Below are positions 1 to 51,272 of a DNA stretch of 64,000 nt, piece after piece. Origin of the DNA: Acidimicrobiia bacterium. Lineage in GTDB: Bacteria; Acidobacteriota; Vicinamibacteria; Vicinamibacterales; CAVVIG01. The position numbers were made by a program, and so were the translations under genes. The stretch's first letter is position 1. Each line of letters starts with the position of its first letter. The notes below the pieces were generated by a model that was given only the letters and a program-made list of their open reading frames with translations, searched no databases and was not told the DNA's origin. The DNA is taken from NCBI GenBank assembly GCA_016871175.1, contig VFZL01000023.1, positions 1 through 64,000 on the forward strand. The letters are read 5' to 3'.

Positions 1-1
1 T

Positions 2-154
2 CACGTTCCTAAGCGTTATCCCGAGAACCCCGCACTGGGGATGTGGGTCAATAACCAGCGAACGGCGAAGCGTGCGGGCAGGTTGTCCGAGGAACGGAGT
101 GCGCGATTGGACGCGTTGGGGTTTGTGTGGGACCTGCGGAAGCGCACGCGCTGA
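2..154 (+). CDS. Helicase-associated domain protein, C-terminal end (partial)
   Basis: The window opens inside a gene. The frame beginning at base 2 reads 50 residues to a TGA at 152-154 and matches the helicase-associated (HA) domain: it starts HVPKRYPENPALGMWVNNQR and contains LSEERSARLDALGF followed by VWDL. HA domains are about 65 residues long and usually occur as tandem repeats after a DEAD/SNF2-type helicase core, often in mobile or defence-related loci. Only the last repeat is visible, so the full architecture and whether the gene is intact are unknown. It is followed by a serine-recombinase relic, which fits an old mobile-element edge. The domain call is from memory of the family pattern. 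Confidence 0.75.
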   Translation, partial: HVPKRYPENPALGMWVNNQRTAKRAGRLSEERSARLDALGFVWDLRKRTR

Positions 155-1413: not shown

Positions 1414-1520
1414 CGGCGACCTCCCTCGATGGGCGAGTCTAGCCGATTCTGCGGATTGACTGTGCGATCGGTTGTCGATAGCTTGAGGTCGTGTAGCCCG
1501 TCCAGATATCCCGTCGTCAG

Positions 1521-2000
1521 AGCTTTGGCACGACGAGTCGCGCCGACGCGTGGTGGAAGGAGCCCGCGCTCACCGCGGCGGGCTTGGTGCTCTTCTTCGG
1601 CTACCTGACGCTCCGTGCGTTCAATCCCACGTATGTCTGGTACGACCCGTACATCAGCCCGACGGTCGCGCCACCCGTGTTCACGCCAGTCACGGGGTAC
1701 CCAGGTTCCGTCCCGGTGGATCACGCGTGGTTCGGCGCGTTCCCGGCCTGGTGGCCCGCATTCCTGCCGCAGACGCCGGCGTTCTTTCTGCCTGCGCTGG
1801 CGATCGCGTTTCGCTTCACGTGCTACTACTACCGTGGCGCCTACTACAAAGCCTTCGCGCTGACGCCGCCCTCGTGCGCGGTTGTCGGAATCGCGAAAGG
1901 CTATCGCGGGGAGAAGGCACGGCTCGTGTTTCAGAACCTGCATCGATACACGCTGTACGGGGCGCTGCTGTTGCTCGTCTTCCTCTGGTGGGAGGGCCTG
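1521..2000 (+). pseudogene. Succinate-dehydrogenase-associated membrane protein, fragment
   Basis: The frame through 1521-2000 encodes a hydrophobic segment with RADAWWKEP, LFFGYLTLRAF, YVWYDPYISP, FRFTCYYYRGAYYKAF, CAVVGIAKGYRGE and QNLHRYTLYG. I recognise these as marks of the membrane protein found next to succinate dehydrogenase genes in Acidobacteria and Actinobacteria. The frame is open back to a stop at 1494-1496, but no ATG, GTG or TTG precedes 1584, which is already inside the homologous part. The family's last transmembrane part is missing: after LWWEGL the frame runs straight into a lipoprotein-type binding protein. It is therefore truncated at both ends. No sdhA or sdhB is nearby. 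Confidence 0.6.
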
Positions 2001-3687
2001 GTGCTCACCGTGGCCGTCTCAGCGGCCGGATGCGGACGCTCGTCTTCTGGTGAACGCCCGAATCATGGCACCACTAACACCGGCCAATCAACTGGTCAGC
2101 CACCGCGAGGGGGACAATTGGTCGTCTCGGTGCGCACCGAGCCCCAGACCTTCAATCGGTACACGCGACGCGACCTGCCGACGGACCTCATCTCGACTTT
2201 CATCAACGGCAAGTTGGTGCGGATCAACCGTCTGACCCAGGAGGTGGAGCCCTGGCTCGCGGCCAGCTGGACGCGCTCCGATGATGGCCGACGATACACG
2301 GTCACACTGCGTGAGGGCGTCACATTCTCCGACGGGCAACTGTTCACGGCTGACGATGTCGTGTTCAGCTTCGACGCGCTGTACAACGCGAAGTCCGGCA
2401 ACGTCCTGGCAGAGGCCGTCAAAGTGGGCGGCAAGCCGCTCAAGGCGGTCGCCGCGGATTCGCGCACCGTCGTCATCGAGTTCCCCGAGGCGTTCGCGCC
2501 CGGACTCCGGTTGCTCGACAACCTCCCGATCTTGCCGAAGCACCGACTCGACGGCGCCCTCAAGGCGGGGCAGTTCGCGTCCGCGTGGGGTGTGGGGACC
2601 CCTCCGTCAGAGATCGTCGGCCTCGGTCCGTTCGCGCTGCGCGAGTACGTGCCCGGTCAGCGCACGGTGCTGTCGCGTAACCCGCGGTACTTCCGGAAGG
2701 ACGATCTCGGTGTCCAGCTCCCGTACCTCGACCGCGTCGTCGTCGAAGTCGTGCCGGATCAGAACGGCGAGCTGCTGCGTCTCGAGGCGGGGGAGATCGA
2801 CGTGACGTCGGGCGAGATTCGGGCGGACGACTACGCGCCCCTCAAGCGCGCGGCGGACGCGGGCCGACTGCAGCTTTTCGATCTCGGCGTGGGATACGAC
2901 GCTGACAGCTTCTGGTTCAATCTGAAACCGGGCGCGTTCGCCGGCGACCCGCGCGAGGCCTGGATCCAGCGCGACGAGCTGCGGCGCGCGATTTCGCTGG
3001 CGGTGAGCCGTCAGCACTTCGCCGACACGGTGTACTTGGGGGCGGCGGTCCCCGTCTACGGGCCCATCACACCGGCGAACCGGCAGTGGTACTCAGCGAG
3101 CGTGCCGCAGACGCCGCACGATCCCGCACAGGCGCGGGCGTTGCTCGCGTCGATCGGCCTCGTGGACCGCAATGGCGATGGCAGGCTCGAGGATGGGCAC
3201 GGCACCACGGCCCGCTTCACGCTGATGGTGCAGAAAGGGCGGACGCTGCAAGCGCGCCGTCGCGGTGATTCGGGACGAGCTCGCCAAGATCGGCATGACC
3301 GTGGACGTCGTGCCGCTGGAGGGTGCCGACCTCATCCAACGCTTCAGCATCTCGCGCGCATACGAGGCGGTGTACTTCAGTGTGCTCACGTCGGACACCG
3401 ATCCAGCCACCAGCTCCGACTTCTGGATGAGTCGTGGGTCCGCGCACATCTGGAACCATGAGCAGCCGACGCCAGCCACCGAGTGGGAACGTCGCATCGA
3501 CGGGTTGATGGACGCGCAGACGCACACGGCGGACCAGGCGCGCCGGAAGGCCATCTTCGATGAGGTGCAGCGGCTGTTTACCGAGCACCTGCCGATCATC
3601 CACTTCGCCGCGCCGAGGGTGTACGCCGTGGCTTCGGCGCGTGTGACGAACGTGACGCCGGCGATCTCTCGGCCTCAATTGCTCTGA
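2001..3687 (+). pseudogene. Oligopeptide ABC transporter substrate-binding protein, frameshifted
   Basis: This is a family-5 extracellular solute-binding protein (DppA/OppA type), which captures peptides or related solutes in the periplasm. GTG 2001 has GGGAGGG six bases upstream and gives a very short leader ending in the lipobox SAAGC. The frame is open upstream, so it may be translated as a fusion with the preceding membrane fragment, whose last helix would serve as signal peptide. Family landmarks include PEPQ-like TEPQTFNRYT, GVTFSDGQLFTADDVVFSFD and LRRAISLAVSRQ. Near 3240-3262 the frame breaks: the original frame continues uselessly to 3461, while the true C-terminus (VIRDELAKIGMTV to ISRPQLL) is in the next frame and stops at 3687. 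One indel would repair it. Confidence 0.75.
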
Positions 3688-3713
3688 GCGCCGGATATCA
3701 TCGCCCTACGACC

Positions 3714-4667
3714 GTGAGCGTCCTGCCGTACCTCGCGCGCCGCCTCGCCGTCGCCGCGCTGCTCGTGTTCACGGTGGCGTCTGGCGCCTTGCTCCTGGCG
3801 CGCCTGGCGCCCGGTGACTACGCGACGGCGTCGCTCGGCGTGGGCGCCACGCCTGAGGCCCTCGCCGCCGCCCGCGCGCGGTATGGGCTGGACCGTCCGG
3901 TGCTCGCGCAGTACGTCAAGTGAATCGGCCGTGCGGCGCGATTCGACTTCGGCGAGTCGTTCGCGTACGACCGGCCGGTGCGCGAGCTCATCGCAGAGCG
4001 GGCGGGCAATAGCGCCATCCTCGCCATTATCGCGCTCCTGTTGGCGACCGCCGTGGGCGTGCCCCTGGGCGTGCTGACTGGCGCGGTGCCGCGCGGGCTC
4101 GTGCCGGGCGCCGTACGGGCCATCTCGGTGGCGCTGCTCTCGATGCCGCCGCTTCTGACCTCATTGGTGCTCGTGTTCATTGCGGCGCGAACCGGCTGGC
4201 TGCCGATCGGTGGCATGCGATCGCTTGGTCCAGAGGCCGGCTCGCTGGCCGACCTCGCGAGCCACCTCGTCGTTCCCGTCCTCGCCATCGGTCTGCCGAT
4301 GGCGGCTCTCCTCGAGCGACTGCAGTTGCAGGCCATGGCCGAGACGATCACGCAGCCGTTCGTGCGCGCGACAATCGCTCGGGGGGTGTCGCGCGCGCGT
4401 GCGCTCTGGCGGCATGCCTTTATCGTGGCGCTGAAACCGACGGCTGCCGTGCTCGGCGTCATCGTCGGCCACGTGCTCAGTGGGTCGTTCGTGGTCGAGA
4501 TCGTGACTGCCTGGCCGGGTCTCGGACGGTCGATGCTGGACGCGCTCCGCGCGCGAGACGTCTATCTGGTCGCAGGCTGCGCGGCGACGGGTGCCTTGTT
4601 CTTGGCGTTCGGGACCTTGCTGTCCGATGCGGTTTCCGCTGCCGTCGACCCGAGGGTGCGCGAATGA
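3714..4667 (+). pseudogene. DppB-type peptide ABC permease with in-frame TGA
   Basis: A GTG start at 3714 begins a DppB/OppB-type inner-membrane permease: LPYLARRLAVAALLVFTVAS, then RLAPGD, RYGLDRPVLAQYVK. A TGA at 3921-3923 then interrupts, and the same frame continues IGRAARFDFGESFAYDRPVREL through several transmembrane helices and the EAA-loop-like region (ATIARGVSRARALWRHAF) to 4667. In this family a tryptophan normally follows at that position (as in 'YLRWLGR'), so one TGG-to-TGA change explains the break. The 69-residue product before the stop could not form a permease. It lies 26 bp after the binding-protein gene and overlaps the next permease start. Confidence 0.8.
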
Positions 4668-5691
4668 ACCGGCACCCCCGCCGTTCCTGCTCCTGTTCCT
4701 GGTGTTTCTCGGGGTTGCGGCCGCACCGGTCGTGGCGCCAAACAGCCCTGCAACGGCCTTCAACACGCTGCTCAATGCCCCGCCGCCGCGCGTCTACCTG
4801 AGAGATACCGCCGGAGCCTGGCGCGCACCCTTCATCTACCCGTAGAAGCGCCTGAGCCAATTGGAACAGACCTACGAAGAAGATCGGCAGACGCCCGTGC
4901 CGTTGCGGTGGTTCGCCGGTGGGCACATCGTGCAGTCGACGGAGCCCGGCGGCGCGCCGCTCCTGCTTTTCGGCGCCGACGCCTTTGGCCGCGATGTCTT
5001 CAGTCGCACGCTCTACGGCGGACGGTGGTCGCTTGACATCGCGGTCCTGGCGGCGTTGGGGGCGTTGTGCCTTGGCGTCTTCGTGGGCAGCATGGCCGGC
5101 TACCGCGGTGGGCTCTGGGACGACGTCCTGATGCGGACATCGGACATGGTGATGGTGCTTCCGACCATGTATGTCGTGATGGTGCTGCGGGCCGCACTGC
5201 CGCTCGTCCTGTCGTCTACGCAGATGTTCGTGCTGCTCGTGTCGCTCTTCTCTGTGGTGGGCGCGCCCATCGTCGCGCGGGCCGTGCTGGCGGTGGTGCG
5301 CTCGGAGCGGGCACTCGAGTACGCGGCGGCGGCCGAATCGCTCGGCGCGAGCCCGCTTCGCATTCTCATTCGTCATCTGCTGCCGGCTGCCACCGGCATC
5401 GTGCTCATCGAGTTGATGACGCTGCTGCCGGGCTTCGTCGTGGCCGAGGCGACGCTGTCTTATGTCGGCTTCGGGTTTCCCGACACCGTGCCCACGTGGG
5501 GGACGATGCTGCATGAGGCCTCGAGCGTGCGCGTGCTGGCAGACTTTCCGTGGCTGTTCGCGCCGGCGATCGCCATCTTTCTCGTCGTGCTGGGTGTGAA
5601 CGCCAGCATCCGGACGTCGCACGCGGGCCTGGGAGCGGGCTTAGATGCAGGAGCGCCGCGCAGGCGGGGGGCGGGGCAGCGCCCCGAGTAG
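4664..5691 (+). pseudogene. DppC-type peptide ABC permease, frameshift plus TAG
   Basis: The likely original start, ATG 4664, overlaps the dppB-type stop (ATGA), but its frame fails after a few codons. The conserved protein (PPPFLLLFLVFLGVAAAPVV, later FGADAFGRDVFSRTLYGGRW and the EAA-like segment AAAAESLGASPLRILIRHLL) lies one frame away, implying an indel in the C-rich stretch after the start. A second lesion, TAG at 4843-4845, falls between APFIYP and KRLSQLEQTYEED; after it the frame is open to 5691. The family role is the second transmembrane subunit of a dipeptide/oligopeptide importer. No ATP-binding subunit genes are present in the window. Confidence 0.75.
5672..5686. repeat. CGGGGC-AGC-GCCCCG hairpin before aldolase start
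   Basis: A perfect six-base-pair inverted repeat with a three-base loop lies at the end of the decayed permease gene, six bases upstream of ATG 5693. The same stem sequence occurs at 16322-16336, four bases upstream of the uvrA start. It could be a translation-modulating hairpin, a short terminator, or a small dispersed palindrome. Confidence 0.6.
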
Positions 5692-5692
5692 A

Positions 5693-6607
5693 ATGAACCC
5701 GATGGTGCTGCCCGCCGGTGTGTACGCGCCGGTCCCGACCCCCTTCGACACCCAGGATACCTTCGATCCTTTACGTTTCCGCGTTGCGCTTGCCCGGTGG
5801 GTGGCTTCACCGCTCGCCGGATTGGTGGTCCTTGGGTCGAACGGCGAAGCGCCGCTCGTGGACGAAGAGGAGAGCGATGGCGTCATCGCCGTGGCGCGCG
5901 AGGCGATTCCGCCCGGCCGTCCACTGATTGTCGGGACGGGACGGGAATCCACCCGCGCGACGGTCGCGGCGTCACGCCGTGCGGCGGCGTTGGGTGCCGA
6001 CGCGGTGATCGTGCGGACGCCCGGATTCTTCAAGTCGCAGATGACCAGCGACGTCTTCGTGCGCCACTACACAGCGGTGGCTGATGCTTCGCCGGTGCCG
6101 GTGCTGCTCTACAACTTCACCGCCGTCACGGGCGTGAACATCGGCGCCGATGCCGTTGCCCGCCTCGCGCAGCACCCCAATGTCGTCGGGATCAAGGAGT
6201 CCGGCGGCGACGTCGCGCAGATTGCCGAGTTAGTGGCGGCCGGCGGATCGGCGTTTCGGGTCTTCGCGGGTTCGAGCACGTCGTTCTATGCGTCACTCTG
6301 TGTCGGTGCGGCCGGCGGCATCCTAGCGCTCGGCTGCGTCCTCCCAGACGCGTGCGCGGCGCTGTTCGATCTCGTCCGCCAGGGCGCCCATCACGACGCC
6401 CGCGCGCTGCAAAGCCGGCTGGTCCCCCTGGCGCAGCTGCTGGGTAACCGGTACGGCGTCGCCGGCCTGAAAGCGGCGCTCGCGCTCGTCGGCTGCGATG
6501 TGGGCCCCCCGAGGCCACCACTGGTGGCGCTCGACGCGCACGGTCGTGACGCGGTCGAGCGGGCGCTCCGGACGTTTTCACACTGGCCGCTACTAAACGA
6601 AGCCTGA
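5693..6607 (+). CDS. DapA/HOGA-family class I aldolase (dihydrodipicolinate synthase family)
   Basis: A 304-residue TIM-barrel aldolase/lyase of the DHDPS/N-acetylneuraminate lyase family. These enzymes form a Schiff base with pyruvate or a 2-oxo acid. K168 in VGIKESGGD is the Schiff-base lysine and Y140 in VLLYNFTAVTG the catalytic tyrosine; the GSNGEAPLVDEEE block (48-60) corresponds to the GTTGE substrate loop, with SN instead of TT. Loss of the TT pair and the downstream aminotransferase suggest a 4-hydroxy-2-oxoglutarate aldolase-like role more than lysine biosynthesis, but specificity is inference. Start could be ATG 5693 or 5702; an upstream open frame to 5645 overlaps the permease relic and is less likely. 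Confidence 0.8.
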   Translation: MNPMVLPAGVYAPVPTPFDTQDTFDPLRFRVALARWVASPLAGLVVLGSNGEAPLVDEEESDGVIAVAREAIPPGRPLIVGTGRESTRATVAASRRAAALGADAVIVRTPGFFKSQMTSDVFVRHYTAVADASPVPVLLYNFTAVTGVNIGADAVARLAQHPNVVGIKESGGDVAQIAELVAAGGSAFRVFAGSSTSFYASLCVGAAGGILALGCVLPDACAALFDLVRQGAHHDARALQSRLVPLAQLLGNRYGVAGLKAALALVGCDVGPPRPPLVALDAHGRDAVERALRTFSHWPLLNEA

Positions 6608-6624
6608 CACACGGAGCTTGGTTG

Positions 6625-7740
6625 ATGAGCTTGCTGCCCGATCAAGATCGAATTCTGCTCGGCCCTGGCCCGAGCTTGACCTCCCCGCGCGTGATGCGCG
6701 CGCTGGCCTCACCGACCGTCAGTCATCTCGATCCCGTCATGCTCGCGTTGATGGACGATGTGCGTGCGCGGTTGGGACGCGCGTTTCGCGCGCCAGAGGG
6801 GTCGCTCGCGTTCGCGGTGTCCGGTACGGGAACGGCGGGCATGGAGACGGTCGTCTCGAACCTCGTGACCGACGGCACCCGGGTCCTCGTCATCGTGGGC
6901 GGGTATTTTGGCGATCGGCTTGTGCAGATGTGCACGCGGTACGGCGCGGCCGTAGCGCGGCTCGACGTGGAGTGGGGCCGTGCCTGCGAGCCCGATGCCG
7001 TGAGACGGGCGCTGGCCGCCCAGCCCGCGGATATCGTCGCGATGGTGCAGGCGGAGACGTCGACCGGCGTGCTCAACCCGGTACGCGAGCTCACGGCGAT
7101 TGCCAAGGAACACGGGGCGCTCGTGATTGTCGACGCGGTGACGTCGTTTGGCGGGCATCCGCTCGAGGTCGGTGCATGGGGCATCGACGCCGCCTACAGT
7201 TGCTCACAGAAGTGTCTCGGCGCGCCGTCAGGCATGGCCCCGATCGTGATGACGCCCGCCGCCCTGGCCCGGCGGGTGGCATGCCGCAGCTTCTACTTCG
7301 GTCTCTCGTTGCTCGAGGACCACTGGCTGCGCCGGAAGTACCACCACACGATGTCCTCCACGTTGATCTACGCGCTCGACGAAGCGCTCGCGATGGTCGA
7401 AGACGAAGGGCTGGAGGCGCGCTGGGCCCGGCACGAGCGCAATCATCAGCTGTTCATCGCCGGGCTGGCTCGACAGGGGCTCTCGGTGCTGCCCCCGGAG
7501 GGTGAAAGGTTGTGGACGTTGAACGCCGTCAAGGTGCCGCCGGGTATCGATGACGCGGCGGTTCGACGGGTGCTGCTCGAGGAGTTCCAGATCGAGATCG
7601 GGGCGGGCCTCGGGCAGTTCGCCGGCACCATCTGGCGAGTCGGCTTGATGGGCGCCAGTTCAAGCCCACGCGTCATTACGCTGCTGCTCGCGGCGCTTAA
7701 CGACGCGCTGGTGAAGCAGGGGCGACGAGCGATGGCTTGA
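6625..7740 (+). CDS. Serine-pyruvate/alanine-glyoxylate-type aminotransferase
   Basis: A 371-residue class V PLP aminotransferase. The start LPDQDRILLGPGPS is characteristic of the AGXT/serine-glyoxylate aminotransferase branch, as are SGTGTAGMETVVSNL (phosphate-binding loop) and VDAVTSFGG with D170 contacting the PLP ring. K196 in YSCSQKCLGAPSG forms the internal aldimine. The usual reaction is glyoxylate plus an amino donor (alanine or serine) to glycine. It starts 15 bases after the aldolase stop, so the two probably share a transcript: an aldolase releasing glyoxylate followed by an enzyme converting it to glycine would fit hydroxyproline or glyoxylate metabolism. ATG 6625 is preferred over the adjacent TTG 6622. 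Confidence 0.85.
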   Translation: MSLLPDQDRILLGPGPSLTSPRVMRALASPTVSHLDPVMLALMDDVRARLGRAFRAPEGSLAFAVSGTGTAGMETVVSNLVTDGTRVLVIVGGYFGDRLVQMCTRYGAAVARLDVEWGRACEPDAVRRALAAQPADIVAMVQAETSTGVLNPVRELTAIAKEHGALVIVDAVTSFGGHPLEVGAWGIDAAYSCSQKCLGAPSGMAPIVMTPAALARRVACRSFYFGLSLLEDHWLRRKYHHTMSSTLIYALDEALAMVEDEGLEARWARHERNHQLFIAGLARQGLSVLPPEGERLWTLNAVKVPPGIDDAAVRRVLLEEFQIEIGAGLGQFAGTIWRVGLMGASSSPRVITLLLAALNDALVKQGRRAMA

Positions 7741-7887
7741 TTGAGCCCGAATCCCTCGAGCTCAAATCGTGAAGTGCGGCGAGAAACCGTGAACCCTCGG
7801 CACCGGCTGAGTGGCGTAGGAGCTATCGTGCGCCGATACTGTGATCGTCTCCAGTCCCATCGTTCCATCTGAGGCAATGGCACCGTC

Positions 7888-8646
7888 GTGGCTCAGGTAG
7901 CGGGCAAGCGAGCTCAACCGTTCGTACGTCGCAGTACCGTCAGCGTTGGACGGTGGCTGGGCGGAGCGGTCGGGTGTCTGTTTGCGTGGCTGTGTTACGC
8001 GTACGTGACACTTCCCGACGTCCGACCGCTTATCAAGAGCAATCCGGCGACGACCGCGTTCATGGATCTCCGCGAGGACGAGGCGCACGACGTCGGCAAA
8101 CCGGCCCGACGCGTCCAGCGCTGGATCGCATACAACAACATCTCACCCCATCTGAAGCGCGCCGTGCTCGTCGCCGAGGACGCCGCGTTCTGGCAGCACG
8201 AGGGGCTCGACCTCGTCGAGCTGCAGAAGTCCATCGAAACCGACTGGGCGCGCGGACAGCTCGTGCGAGGCGCCAGCACCATCACCCAGCAGCTCGCAAA
8301 GAATCTGTATCTGTCGCCGACCCGCAGTCCGGTGCGCAAGCTGCGCGAGCTCGTCATCGCGCGGCGTCTCGAAGCGGAGCTGTCGAAGGCGCGCATCTTC
8401 GAGTTGTACTTGAACGTCGTCGAATGGGGGGACGGCGTGTGGGGTGTCGAGGCCGCGGCGCGCCAGTACTTCGGGACGTCCGCTGCGGAGTTGGGTCCGC
8501 AGGAGTCGGCGCTGCTGGCTGGGGCGCTCGTGAACCCTCGGCTGTTGAATCCGGCGCACCCCAATGCGCGGCTGAAGCGTCGGCAGCACCTCATACTTCG
8601 CCGGATGGGCGTAATCTCTCCACCGAACGAAGTCGGTGTGCTGTGA
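7888..8646 (+). CDS. mtgA: Monofunctional peptidoglycan glycosyltransferase MtgA
   Basis: A 252-residue GT51 enzyme that polymerises lipid II glycan strands at the outer face of the inner membrane. A transmembrane anchor spans about residues 18-41. The catalytic glutamate is E97 in VLVAEDAAFWQHEGLD, followed by the second hallmark GASTITQQLAKNLYL (128-142), KLRELVIARRLE and the third motif region LYLNVVEWGDGVWGVEAAAR. There is no transpeptidase domain, matching MtgA. The start is GTG 7888. No clear operon partner; it is preceded by 147 bp without a gene. Confidence 0.93.
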   Translation: MAQVAGKRAQPFVRRSTVSVGRWLGGAVGCLFAWLCYAYVTLPDVRPLIKSNPATTAFMDLREDEAHDVGKPARRVQRWIAYNNISPHLKRAVLVAEDAAFWQHEGLDLVELQKSIETDWARGQLVRGASTITQQLAKNLYLSPTRSPVRKLRELVIARRLEAELSKARIFELYLNVVEWGDGVWGVEAAARQYFGTSAAELGPQESALLAGALVNPRLLNPAHPNARLKRRQHLILRRMGVISPPNEVGVL

Positions 8647-8770: not shown

Positions 8771-9604
8771 ATGATCAACTACACCGAACGCCTCACCGCG
8801 CTCATGGCTGACATCGTCGCCAGAGTACCGGCGCTCTCGTTCATCGACATGCGAGACGTCCTGGTTTTCGCGCGGGCCGGCCGGTCAGGCGCGAGCGGTC
8901 CGTACGCCTCGTGCCACTGACTGACCCTGCCTCCGAGCGAGCCCGGCTACTTCTTCTGGCGTTGTCGGGAAACCGGTCGGGTCACACGACGCTCGGAGTG
9001 GTTCGTGACCAAGTCCCCATCGGTCTCGCTCTCCGGCCACTTGGTGTCGTATCTCATCTCGTTCGCGCTACCGCGCTATTGCGATCAGTCGCTGCACCGC
9101 GCGCGCAAAGGGCGCTTCTATCATCCCGATGAAGAAGCGTGGATGGCGAAGCTCGACACCGTCATCCACGAGCTCTATCACGTCTCACCGGATCTCAAGG
9201 GCATTCGTCGCATCGAGCGCGGCGACGGCACCTATTTCGCCGATTGCCACGGGCAGCACTATCACCGCGAGGTGGCGGACATGGTGCAGACCTACCTGGC
9301 GAGCGGGCCCGATCCCGAGGTGTATGAGTTCCTGCGCCACGACTTCGATCAACTCCAGCAGCGCTTCGGAGGGGTCGTCGGCACCACTTTCAGGATGTTC
9401 CCCTCGTCCCCGCAGCGTTACGTCGAGCGGCTCACGGTCCAGCCGCCACCGCCCACCGATACGGATCTCGTCGGCGTCGCGGTGGAGGAAGTCCGCCCCA
9501 GCCGTCATCGCGAGCGTTTCAGCGAGGGTGATCTCCACATCCGCGAGTTCGGACGCGAGACCTCTCGACGGCTGGTCCGCACGGGCGCGTTCCGTGCAGC
9601 GTAA
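8771..9604 (+). pseudogene. Conserved HExxH protein interrupted by an in-frame TGA
   Basis: The frame from ATG 8771 (MINYTERLTALMADIVARVP) is open to 9604 except for one TGA at 8918-8920, codon 50. The downstream part (LTLPPSEPGYFFW, RRSEWFVTKSP, ISFALPRYCDQSL, VIHELYHVSPD) clearly belongs to the same protein, a family I recall from Acidobacteria and related genomes and whose function I do not know. HELYH at residues 133-137 fits a zinc-metallopeptidase HExxH motif, but nothing more proves peptidase activity. As I remember the relatives, a cysteine (CHCL) stands where the TGA falls, so a TGC-to-TGA mutation is simplest; recoding as selenocysteine is a remote alternative. A product from GTG 9005 would keep the HELYH part. 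Confidence 0.7.
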
Positions 9605-19558: not shown

Positions 19559-20461
19559 ATGGACGCACAGCGAACGCTTCGTCGCCAAATCTCGTGTGTC
19601 GGAATCGGGCTCCACTCCGGCAACAAGGTCAACCTTTCGCTCAAACCGGCCCCTGCAGACTTCGGTGTCCGATTTCGCCGCCGCGATCTGGGCGGCCATG
19701 ATGTCCCGGCGACCGTGCACCATCTCGCCGGCATTCAACTCGCGACGGGGCTCGCGTGCAACGAGGTGTCGGTAGAAACGGTCGAACACCTGCTGGCCGC
19801 CCTGGTCAGCCTGAATGTCGACAACGTCCTCATCGAGCTGAACTCCCCGGAAGTACCGATCATGGACGGCAGCGCCGCGCCGTTCGTGTACCTGATTCAA
19901 GAAGCGGGGGTCAAGCCGCTGCAAGCGCCACGGAAGTATTTGAAGATTGTGCGGCCGATTGCCATCTCCAAGGGCGACAAACGCATTTCGCTCTACCCGT
20001 CGGAACACTTCAAGGTCACCTACAGCATCAGCTACGACCATCCGCTGCTGCGGCACCAATCGCGCACGTTGCGCATCACCGAAGAGTCGTTCATCGAGGA
20101 AGTCGCGCCCGCGCGCACCTTTACGTTCCTCAAGGACGTGGAGATGCTGCGACAGAACGGCTTGGCGCTGGGCGGCTCGCTGGAGAACGCGATCGTGCTG
20201 GGTGAGACGGGTGTGCTGAACAACGCCCTCCGGTTCGAGGACGAGTTCGTGCGCCACAAGATCCTCGATGCCGTGGGCGACCTGGCCCTGGTGGGGTACC
20301 CCGTCATCGGACATCTGGTCGCGCATCGCGCTGGCCATGCGCTGCACACGGAATTCGCGGCCAAGATCCTCGAAGACGCGCACTGCTGGCGGCTGGTCGA
20401 AGGCAGCAGCGAAAGGGCGCTGTCTCCCGTTTCGGTGCCGGTGAAGGCGTCAGCCCACTAG
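19559..20461 (+). CDS. lpxC: UDP-3-O-acyl-N-acetylglucosamine deacetylase
   Basis: LpxC catalyses the committed, zinc-dependent deacetylation step of lipid A synthesis in the cytoplasm. The 300-residue protein from ATG 19559 (GAGAGGG ribosome site) has QRTLRRQISCVGIGLHSG, the first zinc ligand in SVETVEHLLAALV, the specificity region EVPIMDGSAAPFV, two further zinc ligands in HKILDAVGDLAL (H and D) and the catalytic histidine in HRAGHALH. Length and motifs are standard. Its presence shows a lipid-A-type outer membrane. Confidence 0.97.
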   Translation: MDAQRTLRRQISCVGIGLHSGNKVNLSLKPAPADFGVRFRRRDLGGHDVPATVHHLAGIQLATGLACNEVSVETVEHLLAALVSLNVDNVLIELNSPEVPIMDGSAAPFVYLIQEAGVKPLQAPRKYLKIVRPIAISKGDKRISLYPSEHFKVTYSISYDHPLLRHQSRTLRITEESFIEEVAPARTFTFLKDVEMLRQNGLALGGSLENAIVLGETGVLNNALRFEDEFVRHKILDAVGDLALVGYPVIGHLVAHRAGHALHTEFAAKILEDAHCWRLVEGSSERALSPVSVPVKASAH

Positions 20462-20519
20462 TGTCCGCACGGGCACGAGCTGCGCGCGCGGCCCAGTCTC
20501 ATGCACGCCTGAGTCAGGC

Positions 20520-21881
20520 TCACCGCACCCACAGAGGCTTGGTGGTCGTCGGGGAGCCGCAGCGCTCGAACCAGTCCACGCCCTCGTAGACCAGATCGAA
20601 CTTCAGTGCGTACTTGCCCGGCGTGTCGACCGCGGGTACGTCGACGGGCAGGTCGACGGCCGCGCCGCCGAGGAGCGCGTCGCGAAACTCGCCGCGCGCG
20701 AAGTCCCGATTGATGAGCATACCGTCAGCACCACACAGCTGGACGCCGAGGCGTACGAGTCGTCTCCCGTAGCTCGCTCGGGCCGGAAAAGGCCGCGTGG
20801 AGAGATTGCGGACACCTGTGTTCACACGGAACGGCTGTCCGCGGCGTGCGAGGAGCGGAAGGCCAGGTAACAGCGTCCGGACCTCGATCTGCGCGCGCGG
20901 CGTCGCGCCCGGGATCGCGTTGCCGAGATTGTTGTGATCCCAGACCTCGGTCTGAATCGATTCGAGCTCTGGCCGTCCCGGCAGGAATCGGCGGGAGAAC
21001 GCGTCCTCGGGGTGATCGGTCAACTCCCAGCACAACCGATCCACACCGATCTCAGCGGCCATCTTCCTCGCAAGCTGCATCTCCTCGTCGCTGTCGTTCC
21101 AGGTGAAGAGGATGTAGCGCCAATTGAGGAACGGGACGTCGAGCCCGGCCCTCCGTTTTTCGTCGGCCATCGCGCGAAGGTTGCTCAACGCGACATCGAG
21201 CTTGCCGCGCCGGCGGTAGCGCTCGTAGCTGGCTTGCGTCGCGCCATCGATCGAGAAGGTCACCTCATCTATGCCGGATCGCGAGAGCTGACGTGCCTTC
21301 TCCTCGGTCAACGCGAGCCCGTTCGTGCTGGTGTAGAGATAGACGTGCGGGTATTTCGATTTGACGTACTCGCACATCTCCACGGCCTGTTTGTGTAGGA
21401 ACGCCTCGCCGTAGTTGAAGAAGTCGATGCGCCCAAGCGTCGGCCCAACCTCGTCGGTGACACGGCGGAAGAGCTCGACGTCGAGCATGCCGGCTTGACG
21501 CGTACGCGCGATCCCAGTCTCAGGTGCGCAGCATGCCTGGTAGCAGGAGATGTTGCACGCGGCCGTGCACTCGATGAACATGCGATGGGGCAGCGGGCCG
21601 GCGTCGAGTGGTCGAACCGGTGGCTGCTCGTCCTTCTTCAGCGGCACTTTCAGCGGACAATCGCCGCAGAAGGACGATCCGCCTCCGTTGAGCGCCGCTC
21701 GGAGCGTCGTCACCGCCTCGCCGGCCCAGACCTCGCGAATCGACGACGCGCGTGCATCGCCGAGCACCCGCTTCCCGTAGGGGTCGGCACAGCCGCACAC
21801 GAGCCGGCCGTCGCACAGCATGACCAGGATGTCCCACGGCCAGGAGCACCGAAACCTAGTGGCGAGGTAGTTCAGCGACAC
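20520..21881 (-). CDS. Radical SAM enzyme with N-terminal SPASM-like cysteines and C-terminal beta domain
   Basis: A 453-residue radical SAM protein beginning with GTG 21881, directly after the preceding TAA. Residues about 20-75 look like a SPASM/twitch iron-sulfur module (LVCGCADPYG, SSIREVWAG, FCGDCPL), which normally follows rather than precedes the core. The core has IECTAACNISCYQACC, so cysteines are spaced CX3CX3C rather than canonical CX3CX2C, then FFNYGEAFLH (GGE-like motif), TSTNGLALTEE and SGIDEVTFSIDGATQ. The last 110 residues form a beta domain (RLGVQLCGADGMLINRD, WFERCGSP) like those on polysaccharide-export or glycan enzymes. The substrate is unknown; a glycan- or peptide-modifying role is inference. 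Confidence 0.75.
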   Translation of the reverse strand: MSLNYLATRFRCSWPWDILVMLCDGRLVCGCADPYGKRVLGDARASSIREVWAGEAVTTLRAALNGGGSSFCGDCPLKVPLKKDEQPPVRPLDAGPLPHRMFIECTAACNISCYQACCAPETGIARTRQAGMLDVELFRRVTDEVGPTLGRIDFFNYGEAFLHKQAVEMCEYVKSKYPHVYLYTSTNGLALTEEKARQLSRSGIDEVTFSIDGATQASYERYRRRGKLDVALSNLRAMADEKRRAGLDVPFLNWRYILFTWNDSDEEMQLARKMAAEIGVDRLCWELTDHPEDAFSRRFLPGRPELESIQTEVWDHNNLGNAIPGATPRAQIEVRTLLPGLPLLARRGQPFRVNTGVRNLSTRPFPARASYGRRLVRLGVQLCGADGMLINRDFARGEFRDALLGGAAVDLPVDVPAVDTPGKYALKFDLVYEGVDWFERCGSPTTTKPLWVR

Positions 21882-22148
21882 TTACTGTCCGAGCTTCCTT
21901 CGCATGTAGCTGGCGAGCTTGTCATTCTCGTACTTGACCGTATTGAGGAACAGGCTCTCGGCCAAATACTCCCGACGTTCGGTGTCGCTCATCTGGTCGA
22001 GGAGGTGATCGATTTCGCGCTTCATGTCTTCGAACGACCGCTCGAGCGCCCGCCGGGCGGTGACTTCGTGATACAGCGTCTCCATCACCGCGAGCAGGTC
22101 GCCGTCGAGCGCGATCTCTACGCCGGTCGTCGTCTTGATGGTCCGCAT
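21882..22148 (-). CDS. Small hypothetical protein in the sigma/STAS/radical SAM operon
   Basis: From ATG 22148 this encodes 88 residues, highly charged and predicted helical (TLYHEVTARRALERSFEDMK, HLLDQMSDTERREYLAESLF). I recognise no domain. It starts two bases after the STAS gene stop and its TAA touches the GTG of the radical SAM gene, so it is translated as part of that unit. A longer frame to 22313 overlaps the STAS gene and is not supported. Confidence 0.65.
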   Translation of the reverse strand: MRTIKTTTGVEIALDGDLLAVMETLYHEVTARRALERSFEDMKREIDHLLDQMSDTERREYLAESLFLNTVKYENDKLASYMRRKLGQ

Positions 22149-22150
22149 GG

Positions 22151-22492
22151 CTAGCTCGCGAAGCTCCGTAGGGCGGACGCTTCGTCTCCGTGCAACTCGA
22201 TGAAGTTCTGCGCCCCGGTCATCGTCAGCATCGTTTGCACACGCTTCTGAACTCCGGAGATCTTGAGCTGCCCCCCCGCGGCCTGGACCTGTCGAAATAG
22301 GTCCATGAAGCACCCGATGGTGGCGCTATCGATGTAGGTCACGGGTGCGACGTCGATGAGGATGTGTTTGCGCCCCTCGCCGATGAGCCCGGTGACGACC
22401 GCCGAGAAGTCCGACAGCAACGGATACATGAGTCGCGGCTCACCGACGCGAACGATGCCGATGGAGCCGTGGTGGTCCGTGGTCACTTGCAT
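22151..22492 (-). CDS. STAS-domain anti-sigma-factor antagonist-like protein
   Basis: A 113-residue single STAS domain of the SpoIIAA/RsbV type. HILIDVAPVTYIDSATIGCF is the conserved core in which the serine after Asp (DSAT) is the usual phosphorylation site. Such proteins release a sigma factor or another target by binding a serine-kinase anti-sigma factor when unphosphorylated. No partner kinase is seen in the window. It starts two bases after the ECF sigma gene stop. Confidence 0.82.
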   Translation of the reverse strand: MQVTTDHHGSIGIVRVGEPRLMYPLLSDFSAVVTGLIGEGRKHILIDVAPVTYIDSATIGCFMDLFRQVQAAGGQLKISGVQKRVQTMLTMTGAQNFIELHGDEASALRSFAS

Positions 22493-28793: not shown

Positions 28794-29624
28794 TTAAAGA
28801 AGGAGGACCCTGGTGCCCCGCACCTTCTGGCTGCTCAGGGCGGACAGGAAGTTGGGCACGAGCCGGTCCATCAGCTCGAAGTACGACGAGAGCGCAGGCG
28901 TATTCTGCTGCGCGTTGTAAAGCACCTCTTCCCGATAGCTCTCCGAGTGTATCGTGGCGCCGGTGCGACCGTCGATGAAAACGAACTTCGGACGGAGGAT
29001 GAAGCCCTTGCGCTCGAGGAAGGTGCGGACCGGGGCGACCCTCCGACGTCCGAAGGAGTCGTATTGCTCGACGTCACGATTGACGAAGCCCGACCTTGTG
29101 TGCGGCGTGAAGAGCACCGTGCCGGTGACAATGAGCGGATTCTGGTACTCCTCGCCGATGCGCCTCCAGTAGGCGGTGTTCGCAAAGAGCCGTTCGTACG
29201 GCTCGAGATCCTTTTCCTCACGAATCCGCTCGGGCAGCGCCATCGGACCGCTGCTGTCCCCCGCACTGAGGTTGCCGGCGGCGTCGCCTGACGCGGCTTT
29301 CTGCTGATCCTGCGCGATCGTCACAAGCGGCATCGCATCGGCGTCGAGCACGCGAAACGAGGACTTGGACCGAAGCTGGCTCCGGAGGAGCCGGACGGTC
29401 TCTTGGTTGGCGTCGACATCCTCGGATCCACCTGCGACGAAGCCCGCGATCAGCACCCGCTGGAACGCTGACACGTCCAGCTTCGCTTGAATCGGCGTCT
29501 CGAGCGGCACTTCGACGAGCATCGTACCGCACGCCACCACGCCCAGCGCCGTGATGGCCAGGAGCGCCGCCAGGGTTGGCCGCGCGCTAGTTGTTCTTGT
29601 CTTTCTTGGCTCCGGCGCGATCAT
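28794..29624 (-). CDS. Hypothetical lipoprotein
   Basis: From ATG 29624 this encodes 276 residues with a basic N-terminus (PEPRKTRTTSARP), a hydrophobic stretch LAALLAITALGVVAC and a Cys acylation site. The mature part (LETPIQAKLDVSAFQRVLIAGF, RERIREEKDLEPYERLFANT-like region, VTGTVLFTPHTRSGF, VFIDGRTGATIHSESYREEV) resembles a conserved acidobacterial lipoprotein that I cannot name. The start lies 38 bp inside the preceding TPR gene in another frame, implying translational coupling. Confidence 0.65.
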   Translation of the reverse strand: MIAPEPRKTRTTSARPTLAALLAITALGVVACGTMLVEVPLETPIQAKLDVSAFQRVLIAGFVAGGSEDVDANQETVRLLRSQLRSKSSFRVLDADAMPLVTIAQDQQKAASGDAAGNLSAGDSSGPMALPERIREEKDLEPYERLFANTAYWRRIGEEYQNPLIVTGTVLFTPHTRSGFVNRDVEQYDSFGRRRVAPVRTFLERKGFILRPKFVFIDGRTGATIHSESYREEVLYNAQQNTPALSSYFELMDRLVPNFLSALSSQKVRGTRVLLL

Positions 29625-29949
29625 TGATTTCCTTGAAGAGGTCGTAATTCTGGCGAATCTGGATGTTCTGAGGTTCGAGCGCCAACGCCTTCTCGTACGC
29701 CTGTCGAGCCTGGTCGAGTTGCCCTTCGTGTTCGTACGCCACCCCCAAGTTGTTGTAGGCGGCGGCATAGGTCGGGTCGAGCTTCACCGCGCGTTGCCAT
29801 CGGTAGATAGCCTCGCGCCACAATCCGCGCTGGGCCACCTCGATGCCGAATTGCGCCTCGCCTTTCGCGGACTCTCGTGCATCGGCCCCTACGGGGACGG
29901 CACAGGCCAACAGAATCGCGAGCAACGGCAACGCTCGACGCCACTTCAT
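29587..29949 (-). CDS. Exported TPR-repeat protein
   Basis: A 120-residue protein with signal peptide (RRALPLLAILLACAVPVGADA) and about two TPR units: AIYRWQRAVKLDPTYAAAYNNLGVAYEHEGQLDQARQ is split across two helical repeats, followed by AYEKALALEPQN. It likely acts as a periplasmic protein-interaction adaptor for the overlapping lipoprotein gene. ATG 29949 is chosen over TTG 29955. Confidence 0.75.
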   Translation of the reverse strand: MKWRRALPLLAILLACAVPVGADARESAKGEAQFGIEVAQRGLWREAIYRWQRAVKLDPTYAAAYNNLGVAYEHEGQLDQARQAYEKALALEPQNIQIRQNYDLFKEINDRAGAKKDKNN

Positions 29950-45225: not shown

Positions 45226-45918
45226 GTGACTCGACCATTCGTCAACCGACTCTCAAGCGGCCTTTCGCGTCTAAGGAAGGTGAGCGCCACGGGATCCCGC
45301 GCCGCAGTGCTAACGACGTCGACCGACGAGGAACTCGTCGCCCGGTGCATCCGCGGCGATCGAGATAGCTTCAACGAGTTCATCCTTCGATGGGAGCGGC
45401 CCATCTACGCCTTGGCGTACCGCACGATTGGCCGGAAAGACGATGCCCGGGACGTCTGCCAGGAAACATTTCTTCGGGCGTTTCGGGCGCTGCCAGGCTT
45501 TAGAGGCCAGGCGAAGTTTTTGTCCTGGCTCTACCGGATCACCCTCAACCTCTGTCGCGATTGGATCCGGCGCCAGCGACGGGCGCCGTTCGTCTCCGTT
45601 CCGGAGGACGTCGATCCGGTCGAGCTGGCTGCGGCTGCCGAGCCATCCGAGGGCATCGAGGACCTGGTCGCACGACGTGACCTTACCCGTATTGTCGAAC
45701 GCGTGATGACGAGATTGCCCGACGAGCAGCGGACTGCGATCATTTTGAAGGAGTATCACGGGCTTACGTTTCAGGAAATCGCCGACCTGATGGGTTGCCC
45801 GCTCAGCACGGTCAAGACCCGGCTCTATCAAGGCTTGGCCGTGTTGCGACGGGAGTTGGCAAAAGTGCAGGACGCTCCGGCCAGCGGGAGCGGTCCGGCA
45901 CGGCGGGAACGCGTGTGA
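45226..45918 (+). CDS. ECF RNA polymerase sigma factor
   Basis: A 230-residue RpoE-like factor from GTG 45226. Region 2: CIRGDRDSFNEFILRWERP, DDARDVCQETFLRAFRALPG, FLSWLYRITLNLCRDWIRRQ. Region 4: LPDEQRTAIILKEYHGLTFQ, EIADLMGCPLSTVKTRLYQG. It is divergent from the sensor kinase and followed after 13 bp by its anti-sigma gene, a typical pair. Confidence 0.92.
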   Translation: MTRPFVNRLSSGLSRLRKVSATGSRAAVLTTSTDEELVARCIRGDRDSFNEFILRWERPIYALAYRTIGRKDDARDVCQETFLRAFRALPGFRGQAKFLSWLYRITLNLCRDWIRRQRRAPFVSVPEDVDPVELAAAAEPSEGIEDLVARRDLTRIVERVMTRLPDEQRTAIILKEYHGLTFQEIADLMGCPLSTVKTRLYQGLAVLRRELAKVQDAPASGSGPARRERV

Positions 45919-45931
45919 GAGACAAGTAGAC

Positions 45932-46462
45932 ATGACCAATCATGTGACGTGCACATACCCCGGCGACCGCGAGGGGGCCATCATCGACTATCTGTACGGA
46001 GAGACCGACGCCGCCGACCGGAACGTGTTCGAGCGGCACATTGTCGGCTGTGCCGTCTGTCGTGCTGAACTCGACGAGTATCGCGGCGTCCAGCGGACGC
46101 TCTCGAGATGGGCGCCGCCCGAACCCGATCGGACACCAGAGTTCAGTCCGCTCCTGACGGGGCCCCGGCTCGCGGTGCCCAAGGCCGACCTGCCAGCGTC
46201 TTCTCCTGCGCCCACACCGCGCTTCGTGGCAATGCCGATTTGGGCCCGTGTCGCGGCCGCTGTGCTTTGCGTGGGGGTTGGTGCCGGTGCCGCCAACTTT
46301 CGCGTGACGTACTCGCCAGAGGGCCTGACGATGCGGACCGGCTGGCTGAGCGACGCGCCACCGTCCCCCGCATCCAGCGCGTCCCAACAGCCCTGGCGAA
46401 CGGAGCTGGCCGCGATGGCCGACGAACTTCGTCGAGAGATGCAGTCCCGGAACACGCCGTAA
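45932..46462 (+). CDS. Zinc-finger anti-sigma factor, truncated by TAA
   Basis: A 176-residue membrane anti-sigma factor. The cytoplasmic ZAS zinc finger is FERHIVGCAVCRAEL (HxxxCxxC), followed by a Pro-rich stretch and one transmembrane helix (ARVAAAVLCVGVGAGAA). It should hold the adjacent sigma factor inactive. The TAA at 46460-46462 ends it early: the same frame continues with a helical segment to 46759 that I recall as the normal C-terminus of such proteins. The sigma-binding part is intact and may still work. Confidence 0.82.
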   Translation: MTNHVTCTYPGDREGAIIDYLYGETDAADRNVFERHIVGCAVCRAELDEYRGVQRTLSRWAPPEPDRTPEFSPLLTGPRLAVPKADLPASSPAPTPRFVAMPIWARVAAAVLCVGVGAGAANFRVTYSPEGLTMRTGWLSDAPPSPASSASQQPWRTELAAMADELRREMQSRNTP

Positions 46463-46759
46463 CTGGCGGCGGCATCGGCGGGAGAGTCGCGAGACCAGGG
46501 GGCAGGGGTCCCTGGAGCCATAGACGACGTGCTGCTGAAACACGTGAGGACGCTCATTGCGCGTAGCGAGCAACGCCAACAGCGTGAGCTGGCATTGCGC
46601 ATCGGGGACGCCTTGAACGACGTTCAGGTGCAGCGGCGAGCCGATCTCGCGCGGATCGACCGCGCCATCGGTGTGATGCAGAGCAGTACGGGCATGGACC
46701 TCTTGCGGCAGCGTGAGGCCATCAACACGTTGGCGGTCAGAGTATCGAGCCAGCGCTAG
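46463..46759 (+). pseudogene. Detached C-terminal part of the anti-sigma factor
   Basis: Directly after the TAA, in the same frame, 98 codons encode a helical segment (DDVLLKHVRTLIARSEQRQQ, RELALRIGDALNDVQVQRR, GMDLLRQREAINTLAVRVSS). These match the periplasmic coiled tail of related acidobacterial anti-sigma factors as I remember them. A start at 46529 could give a 76-residue orphan, but it would lack signal or membrane anchor. It is probably the product of a single nonsense mutation. Confidence 0.65.
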
Positions 46760-46783: not shown

Positions 46784-47710
46784 ATGGGTATGCGAGTACC
46801 AGCGATTGCGGGATGGACTGCGGGGATCCTCTTCTGCGTGCTGCCGCCGGCGGCGGCGCAATCCCCCCCGTCGGGCAGCTCGCGTCTTCGGGTACGCCGG
46901 CGTCGCGCACGGGGCCCGACCGGCAGCAGCGGTATCTCATCGCCACGATGGAGCGCGTGCTGGAGGGAGCGGTGGAGCACGGTGCGGCCATCACCCGCGA
47001 ACGGCTGCAGGCCTACCTGCCCGCCGACATGCTCCTGAACGATAACGCCCGAGTCCGTGGCTTCCGGCTCGAAGGCTACGGCGTCTTCTTCGACGTTTCA
47101 GTGCCGTCACTCGAGGGCACGCTGCCGTGGTCCTTCCGCGTGCTGGATCAGAACAACCTCGGGCTCGAAAACGCGGTGAGCACGTTGCGGTCGTTCATCG
47201 AGTCGTCTTCGCCAAACGACGTGGATGTGCAGCAGGCATTTAGACGATTGGTGATGCAAGCCGCTCCGGGATCGCCGGTCCTGCTGAGCGGACGCGACAG
47301 CGTGTCAAATAGCCAGAGCGGGCCCGTCCTCCCGTCGCCGGCCGCGCCTCCCAGTGGGGCTCGCAGCAGCGTATCCGGCCGGTCAGGTTTCACAGGGCCC
47401 CCTTGAGCGGATGCCGCCGAGGCCGACGGCCGACCCCATCCTGGACAAACCCCAGGAGGCCTATCGGCTCGAGGTCCGTCATGCCCTCATGGATGTGATG
47501 TTGGATCACAGTCGTAGTCTGAACCTGTTGGCTGATGAGTGGCTGACGGTTGCGGCCCGGAGCCACGACGAACGGCCGCGATTGGCCCCTATGGATAACG
47601 AGGGGCAAACGGTGGTGATCCGTGTGCGCGGGGCAGACCTGAACGCGTACTTGGGAGGACAGATCTCACGTGAGGACGCCCGGAGGCGTATGGATGTGCG
47701 GGTGTTCTGA
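46784..47710 (+). pseudogene. Exported protein of the sigma/anti-sigma locus, two frameshifts
   Basis: ATG 46784 gives a signal peptide (AGWTAGILFCVLPPAAAQS). At a run of seven Cs (46863-46869) the coding frame changes: DRQQRYLIATMERVLEGAVE, LQAYLPADMLLNDNARVRGF and WSFRVLDQNNLGLENAVSTL lie in another frame ending at 47406. The C-terminus (DPILDKPQEAYRLEVRHALM, LADEWLTVAAR, VIRVRGADLNAYLGGQISRE) is back in the first frame and stops at 47710. I recall relatives as one continuous protein in the same position after an anti-sigma gene. Function is unknown. Confidence 0.7.
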
Positions 47711-50568: not shown

Positions 50569-50704
50569 GGTCAAATGACTCCCTCAGGATACACAGCAAC
50601 GGCCCTGCCAGTTGGGCTTGGCGAAAATCGGCCGAAAAAGACCGAGCCATGCGCTGTCCGTCTTGCCATCGTGACCACCACGGGGCACGTCGCGTCCCGT
50701 TTTC

Positions 50705-50734
50705 TTGACACCCCGATCGGGTGGCCGATACAGT
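50705..50734 (+). promoter_or_regulatory. Candidate promoter of hslVU
   Basis: TTGACA (50705-50710), an 18-bp spacer and TACAGT (50729-50734) lie just before ATG 50745. The predicted transcript would have almost no leader. Confidence 0.5.
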
Positions 50735-50744
50735 CAGAAGATCC

Positions 50745-51272
50745 ATGATTCACAGCACGACGATTCTTGCCGTGCGTTGTCGAGACGGCGCCGTACTCGC
50801 CGGAGACGGTCAGGTGACCTTCGGCCAGACCGTGGTCAAGCAGGGTGCGCGCAAGATCCGTCGGCTCTACAACGATCGGATCCTGGCTGGCTTTGCGGGG
50901 TCCGCGGCCGACTCGTTCGCGCTGTTCACGCGCTTCGAGGCCAAGCTGGAACAGTACCGGGGGAATCTGGAACGCTCTTCGGTGGAGCTCGCCAAGGACT
51001 GGCGGACCGACCGGCTCCTGCGCCGTCTCGAGGCGATGCTGGTCGTGTTGGACCGGACGACGACGTTTCTCCTCTCCGGCACCGGCGATCTCATCGAGCC
51101 TGACGATGGGATCGCAGCGATTGGCTCCGGGGGCGCCTATGCGCTCGCAGCGGCGAGGGCTCTGGTGCAGAACACCGACCTCGACGCGCGGAGCGTCGCG
51201 CTGAAAGCGATGACGATCGCCTCCGACATCTGCATCTATACGAACGCGCACATCGTCGTGGAAGAACTGTAG
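50745..51272 (+). CDS. hslV: ATP-dependent protease subunit HslV
   Basis: A 175-residue proteasome-like peptidase subunit. [20 protein letters not shown] contains the Thr pair whose first residue becomes the N-terminal nucleophile, then [19 protein letters not shown] and [15 protein letters not shown]. It forms the HslVU protease with the next gene; its TAG overlaps the hslU GTG by one base. ATG 50745 is preferred over an upstream start at 50721. Confidence 0.96.

Follow-up and report, generated by a model that had tools for sequence, protein, structure and literature searches.

Probable recent loss of a Dpp/Opp-type peptide ABC importer in an Acidobacteriota draft genome, with lesions in all five subunit genes at two loci

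The available portion of a report on the Dpp system of Escherichia coli describes five distinct subunits, four of which form the translocator, a DppBCDF heterotetramer that needs DppA and ATP for activity (PMC12136057). The importer considered here resembles DppABCDF, as set out there, in having a family-5 binding protein, two permeases and two ATPases with the oligo_HPY C-terminus, and differs in that its genes are split over two loci, that each subunit gene is lesioned, and that its substrate is putative. Two further kinds of described case are relevant. Domino-type gene loss was shown, according to the part of the source available, in an insect endosymbiont through correlated gene losses (PMC6027505); the likeness is that functionally linked genes go together once one fails, and the difference is that our case consists of fresh pseudogenes in one MAG. 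Insertion-element-rich eroding genomes (e.g., PMC6020299, likewise available in part) share with ours the element copies at many contig ends and the fresh pseudogenes, whereas, unlike such host-associated bacteria, the organism studied here has no known host and its erosion was gauged over about 137 kb only. Among the literature matches listed, in the portions available, many of the reports on broken peptide transporters concern lactic acid bacteria and pathogens.

The window, as we call the whole stretch of DNA analysed here, comprises bases 1-64000 (64,000 nucleotides) of contig C23 in assembly G000, a MAG-like draft of 4.44 Mb in 85 contigs that is 96.8% complete. Among the genomes searched, only G001 shares the genus of G000, and it serves as the intact reference: from about 2121 onward to the window end the two are collinear, with gaps, at 70–80% DNA identity, and because G001 is both collinear and intact the comparison could be made lesion by lesion. 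Intact orthologues of the importer genes lie at the same place in this near relative, on its contigs C5 and C53. Lesions were mapped by tblastn with the intact G001 proteins as queries on the window, and 23–28 further relatives per gene were compared besides G001. The features at the first locus are as follows.

1512..1997, + strand: stump of a membrane-protein gene with no Pfam match, cut short and fused in frame to the binding protein
1985..2005, + strand: junction, probably a deletion, leaving the binding protein without its first 7 residues and its own upstream region
1998..3714, + strand: binding protein pseudogene (SBP_bac_5, PF00496; Pfam), in two frames
3238..3262, + strand: frameshift in the binding protein, where the tblastn pieces join at 3247-3257
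3685..3687, + strand: in-frame TGA in the binding protein, at a Trp column 10 residues short of the G001 end
3714..4667, + strand: permease B pseudogene (BPD_transp_1, PF00528; Pfam, tblastn)
3921..3923, + strand: in-frame TGA in permease B (G001 alignment)
4664..5691, + strand: permease C pseudogene (BPD_transp_1, PF00528; Pfam, tblastn)
4667..4714, + strand: probable frameshift at the start of permease C, where the frame of the ATG at 4664 differs from that of the conserved part
4843..4845, + strand: in-frame TAG in permease C (G001 alignment)

A first-pass annotation of the window had proposed the recent loss of a peptide transporter carrying four coding lesions. Comparison with the intact G001 locus and with the relatives upholds the lesions, and all four of the sites it named were found, one of them as a probable lesion only, while it overlooked the TGA at 3685 and the junction near 1998. 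The binding protein, the sole SBP_bac_5 match in G000, gives a PF00496 match (E 1e-66) over the stretch ahead of the frameshift; the G001 protein aligns at 72% identity in frame 3 to about 3257 and at 74% in frame 1 from about 3247, confirming by tblastn a frame switch near 3250, within the 3240-3262 interval originally suggested. The TGA at 3685 falls in a column that is Trp in 23 of 23 relatives. The stop claimed at 3921 in the first permease is equally firm, its column being Trp in G001 and in all 27 relatives with data, and that claimed at 4843 in the second is borne out by Trp in G001 and 17 of 27 relatives, the other 10 having Leu, Val, Ile or Arg. The frameshift announced near 4664 fared less well. 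The ATG at 4664 overlaps the stop of B, as in G001, and the conserved part of C aligns in another frame from 4714, so the frame mismatch is there; the N-terminus of C, however, is poorly conserved and thinly covered by the relatives, and a GTG at 4702 sits in the C frame, so that we rate a real frameshift as probable, with a late start at GTG 4702 as the alternative. The best NCBIfam models for permeases B and C are Opp2B and Opp4C, with scores under the equivalog cut-offs. The putative substrate, peptide, is likewise assigned by family, and the same family includes nickel and opine systems.

The upstream end of the operon is also altered. The G001 binding protein alignment begins at residue 8, at position 1998, and the region upstream of the binding protein that is common to G001 and to a further genome, G014, has no match in the window. 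The membrane-gene stump is 79.7% identical in DNA to contig C76 of G014 over 1590-2000, and its homologue there is a 306-residue open frame that extends about 100 residues further and also lacks a Pfam match. A translocation at the junction was considered and rejected: DNA searches of G000 for both missing pieces returned just weak or paralogous matches, namely no more than a 226-bp match at 69% for the upstream region and, for the end of the membrane gene, a match only beside a paralogue on contig C26. As the missing pieces gave nothing better, deletion is probably the simplest reading of the junction near 1998, although such searches may miss diverged pieces. The stump and the binding protein now share one open frame (1584-3461), which would suit the idea that the fused, frameshifted genes are still partly expressed in a new role, for example as the stump plus the first two thirds of the binding protein. 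From 3257 onward, however, the reading is out of frame, the signal start of the binding protein is gone, and both permeases and both ATPases are broken too; we regard such a new role as very improbable.

The ATPases lie elsewhere. Only two oligo_HPY ATPase matches occur in G000, on C38 and C18, both near contig ends. C38 ends, behind an open methylmalonyl-CoA mutase gene (Pfam), with ATPase gene D and then the start of ATPase gene F. The D fragment carries PF08352 and PF00005 (Pfam) and has a frameshift at about codons 127-132 of the D gene of G001, where D and F are both open, as intact orthologues on C53. The start of F on C38 stops at a sequence beginning TGACCTGCCCGGT, and the gene resumes at the C18 end, where ACCGGGCAGGTCA and a second CAGG stand ahead of the remaining part. 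In G001 these two portions of F map side by side, overlapping by 5 bases, and the inserted sequence has 13-bp inverted ends, with the duplicated CAGG forming a 4-bp target duplication; because of these three features F is read as interrupted by an insertion element, whose middle is unassembled. The element may be IS3-like. One of its ends occurs at 9 places in G000 (3 identical, 6 at 84–88%), all at most 6 bases from a contig end and one of them being the distal end of the contig that holds the window (C23:76626-76743), and the other end occurs at 3 places. These nine copies appear to represent two related element types, which are apparently spreading and breaking the assembly. A tblastn comparison of the 31-amino-acid end of the element with plasmids gave no match. 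In the N-terminal half of F (L039:7560-7600), two residues seem by eye to be missing relative to G001 just before Walker B, possibly a further lesion.

The first-pass annotation also remarked that no ATPase genes lie near the operon. ATPases do sit elsewhere, and their absence from the neighbourhood is rejected as part of the loss, since the split layout is the usual one. Among the 60 genomes searched for permease B, G000 included, 37 besides G000 match B at 150 bits or more, and 6 of the 60 have no B match at all; in all 36 relatives with both, the best B and the best D matches are on separate contigs, a count that rests on the matches listed, so that weaker ATPases closer to B are possible. 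The remaining genome, G037, has a B match and no D orthologue among the matches listed. In four relatives (G027, G042, G046 and G052) over 100 kb of contig lies on both sides of B. The ATPases are themselves broken at this second locus, and therefore the loss spans the whole system: linked genes at separate places, the operon on C23 and D and F on C38/C18, are broken together.

We then asked how unusual such lesions are in this genome by a forward survey of 136.7 kb of G000 (about 3% of the genome) with 74 reference ORFs of G001 (29,968 codons). Seventeen of the 74 were flagged and nine kept as broken: the binding protein, B, C, D, the genes at 8771-9601 and 46813-47710, and three consecutive C23 genes beyond the window. 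The other eight were dropped, four by alignment and four by coordinates alone; in ORFs 19559-20470, 28797-29867 and 50661-51269 and in an Omp85 gene the stop precedes the likely start or sits at the very end. A 140-residue G001 ORF matching window positions 21852-22268, with two stops, was among those dropped by coordinates and might be a real gene. The broken F and a broken zf-HC2 anti-sigma-type factor missed the cuts of this survey, and a reverse survey of 77 G000 ORFs against G001 flagged five, none of which was judged real by coordinates. Six genes other than the five importer genes are thus broken in the roughly 137 kb surveyed, a two-component operon among them, and none was judged broken in G001.

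8771-9601: gene without a Pfam match (G001 protein), 72% identical to G001; in-frame TGA at 8918
45932-46756: zf-HC2 anti-sigma-type factor, 51% identity to G001; TAA at 46460
46813-47710: gene without a Pfam match; frameshift near 47300-47370
C23, in 67764-71690 (L042:7764-11690), beyond the window: sigma-54-dependent response regulator; frameshift at codon 136
C23, in 67764-71690: histidine kinase; frameshift near codon 117
C23, in 67764-71690: small protein without a Pfam match; TAG at 71292

The picture of an isolated transporter in decay is accordingly too narrow: its lesions are real, yet other genes of the genome are lesioned too. The flanking metabolic genes, described as intact by the first-pass annotation, are so for the three downstream genes at 5693-8646, but the fourth is broken by the TGA at 8918, and on the upstream side the neighbouring gene is cut short. 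The zf-HC2 factor and the gene at 46813-47710 sit behind an open sigma-70-family gene (45226-45918), and both of their lesions fall in variable linkers.

These additional lesions bear on the question of whether the damage is technical, that is, whether false indels or bases, or a mixed-strain consensus, have made a transporter that is intact in the organism look broken. Apparent pseudogenes can be technical artefacts, and such artefacts are on record (PMC11017572, PMC12007338, each available in part); G000 is a MAG-like draft in 85 contigs, and among its lesioned genes is the highly conserved response regulator, which remains 94% identical to G001 past the frame change with a dN/dS of 0.05. 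Decay of that gene, if real, would have to be very young, and its state fits either very recent decay or error. Against a technical origin, stops are present alongside the indels, an insertion in F with a target duplication is not an error of this kind, and conserved columns show an excess of private changes (see below). Contigs end at the insertion element, at 9 of 9 places of one element end, which points to short reads. With short reads, indel errors would be rare. Long-read homopolymer errors, considered as a source of the lesions, were judged unlikely because of the same contig breaks, from which we infer the platform. The distribution of the lesions also argues against error: in a list of 73 genes assembled by hand, 12 point lesions fall in 10 genes and form 5 adjacent broken pairs where 1.5 are expected (P=0.006). 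The transporter takes 6 of the 12 point lesions with 6.3% of the codons (P=4e-5), a biased figure, since it was on account of its lesions that the operon was chosen. No such choice applies to D and F, which were sought once the lesions in the window had been established; both are broken (2/2, vs 6/68 of the other listed genes). Taken together, we consider a technical origin unlikely.

The substitution patterns are compatible with a genuine and recent loss. Internal stops are absent from the aligned parts of the five genes in the 23–28 relatives, save for one at the poorly aligned N-terminus of C in L008. At columns with at least 90% agreement among relatives, and with lesion edges excluded after a first pass, private changes in the five importer genes number 19 in the window lineage vs 7 in G001 (p=0.03), an excess that is modest and uneven (window/G001: binding protein 4/1, B 4/2, C 1/2, D 5/1, F 5/1; controls: mutase 2/0, aldolase-family neighbour 1/3). 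The first pass, at a 95% cut, had given binding protein 5/1, B 4/2, C 1/1, D 3/0, F 9/1, mutase 2/0 and aldolase-family gene 0/1, with window counts inflated by stops and insertion edges. Relative to G001, dN/dS is 0.14–0.19 for the five genes, which is what recent loss would leave and lies inside the 0.03–0.19 range of 33 intact genes, while their pN/pS ranks higher (p=0.009). Low dN/dS as a sign of function was set aside, because synonymous sites are near saturation (pS 0.48–0.65) and hardly any trace is to be expected from a recent loss. With a stop arising from about 3% of random substitutions in these frames, three nonsense changes would correspond to roughly 96 substitutions in 5.0 kb, or about 2%, a very rough age; on this estimate the importer was lost long after the split from G001, and drift since inactivation amounts to a few per cent at most.

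So recent a loss could also be real and still segregating, with the assembly derived from one strain or a minority while the importer is still intact elsewhere in the species. The apparent youth of the loss favours this, as does the fact that just one genome of the species and one of a sister species were found; with five genes at two loci hit, however, it cannot be a single segregating mutation, and we hold segregation to be a lesser, though appreciable, possibility.

We suggest that a Dpp/Opp-type peptide ABC importer has probably been inactivated recently, in what would be a domino-type loss across two loci. The transporter loss first proposed from the operon is thus supported, and extends to the whole system through the broken ATPase locus. 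All five subunit genes carry at least one presumably inactivating lesion, where a working importer would have open genes, and since all five are broken, import by the ABC system is not expected. The subunits would function solely as one complex; a first lesion would have released the remaining subunit genes from selection, and further lesions would then have built up at both loci. G000 still has a POT-type peptide symporter gene, whose open frame spans 524 residues, and the loss may have been tolerable because this symporter remains and because the niche no longer rewards ABC-driven peptide uptake. The locus offers a clean snapshot of a multi-subunit machine being lost, with each gene hit, two loci affected and varied types of mutation. 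The mechanism, loss of a whole machine after one part fails, is already well known, and this is a clear but ordinary case of it. For annotators, a missing ATPase beside the operon is the usual layout in the order, and an ABC peptide importer should not be ascribed to G000.

Whole units seem to be lesioned (the importer at two loci, the two-component operon, and the anti-sigma factor with its neighbour), whereas the housekeeping genes next to them show no lesions. This may tentatively reflect early, module-by-module erosion in an otherwise large-genome Acidobacteriota lineage, accompanied by insertion-element spread, a possibility we treat as a lead and not a result because about 3% of the genome was surveyed. 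If true, it would suggest a recent shift to life with a host or in some other narrow niche, and lesions of differing age could reveal the order in which modules are lost.

The first part of the window, positions 1-2000, is not collinear with G001. It holds a creatininase-family gene at 607-1413 on the − strand, scoring 31.8 bits vs a Pfam cut-off of 31.3, and at 1-153 (+) the end of an open frame cut by the contig start, which by eye resembles, and which we presume to be, a helicase-associated repeat.
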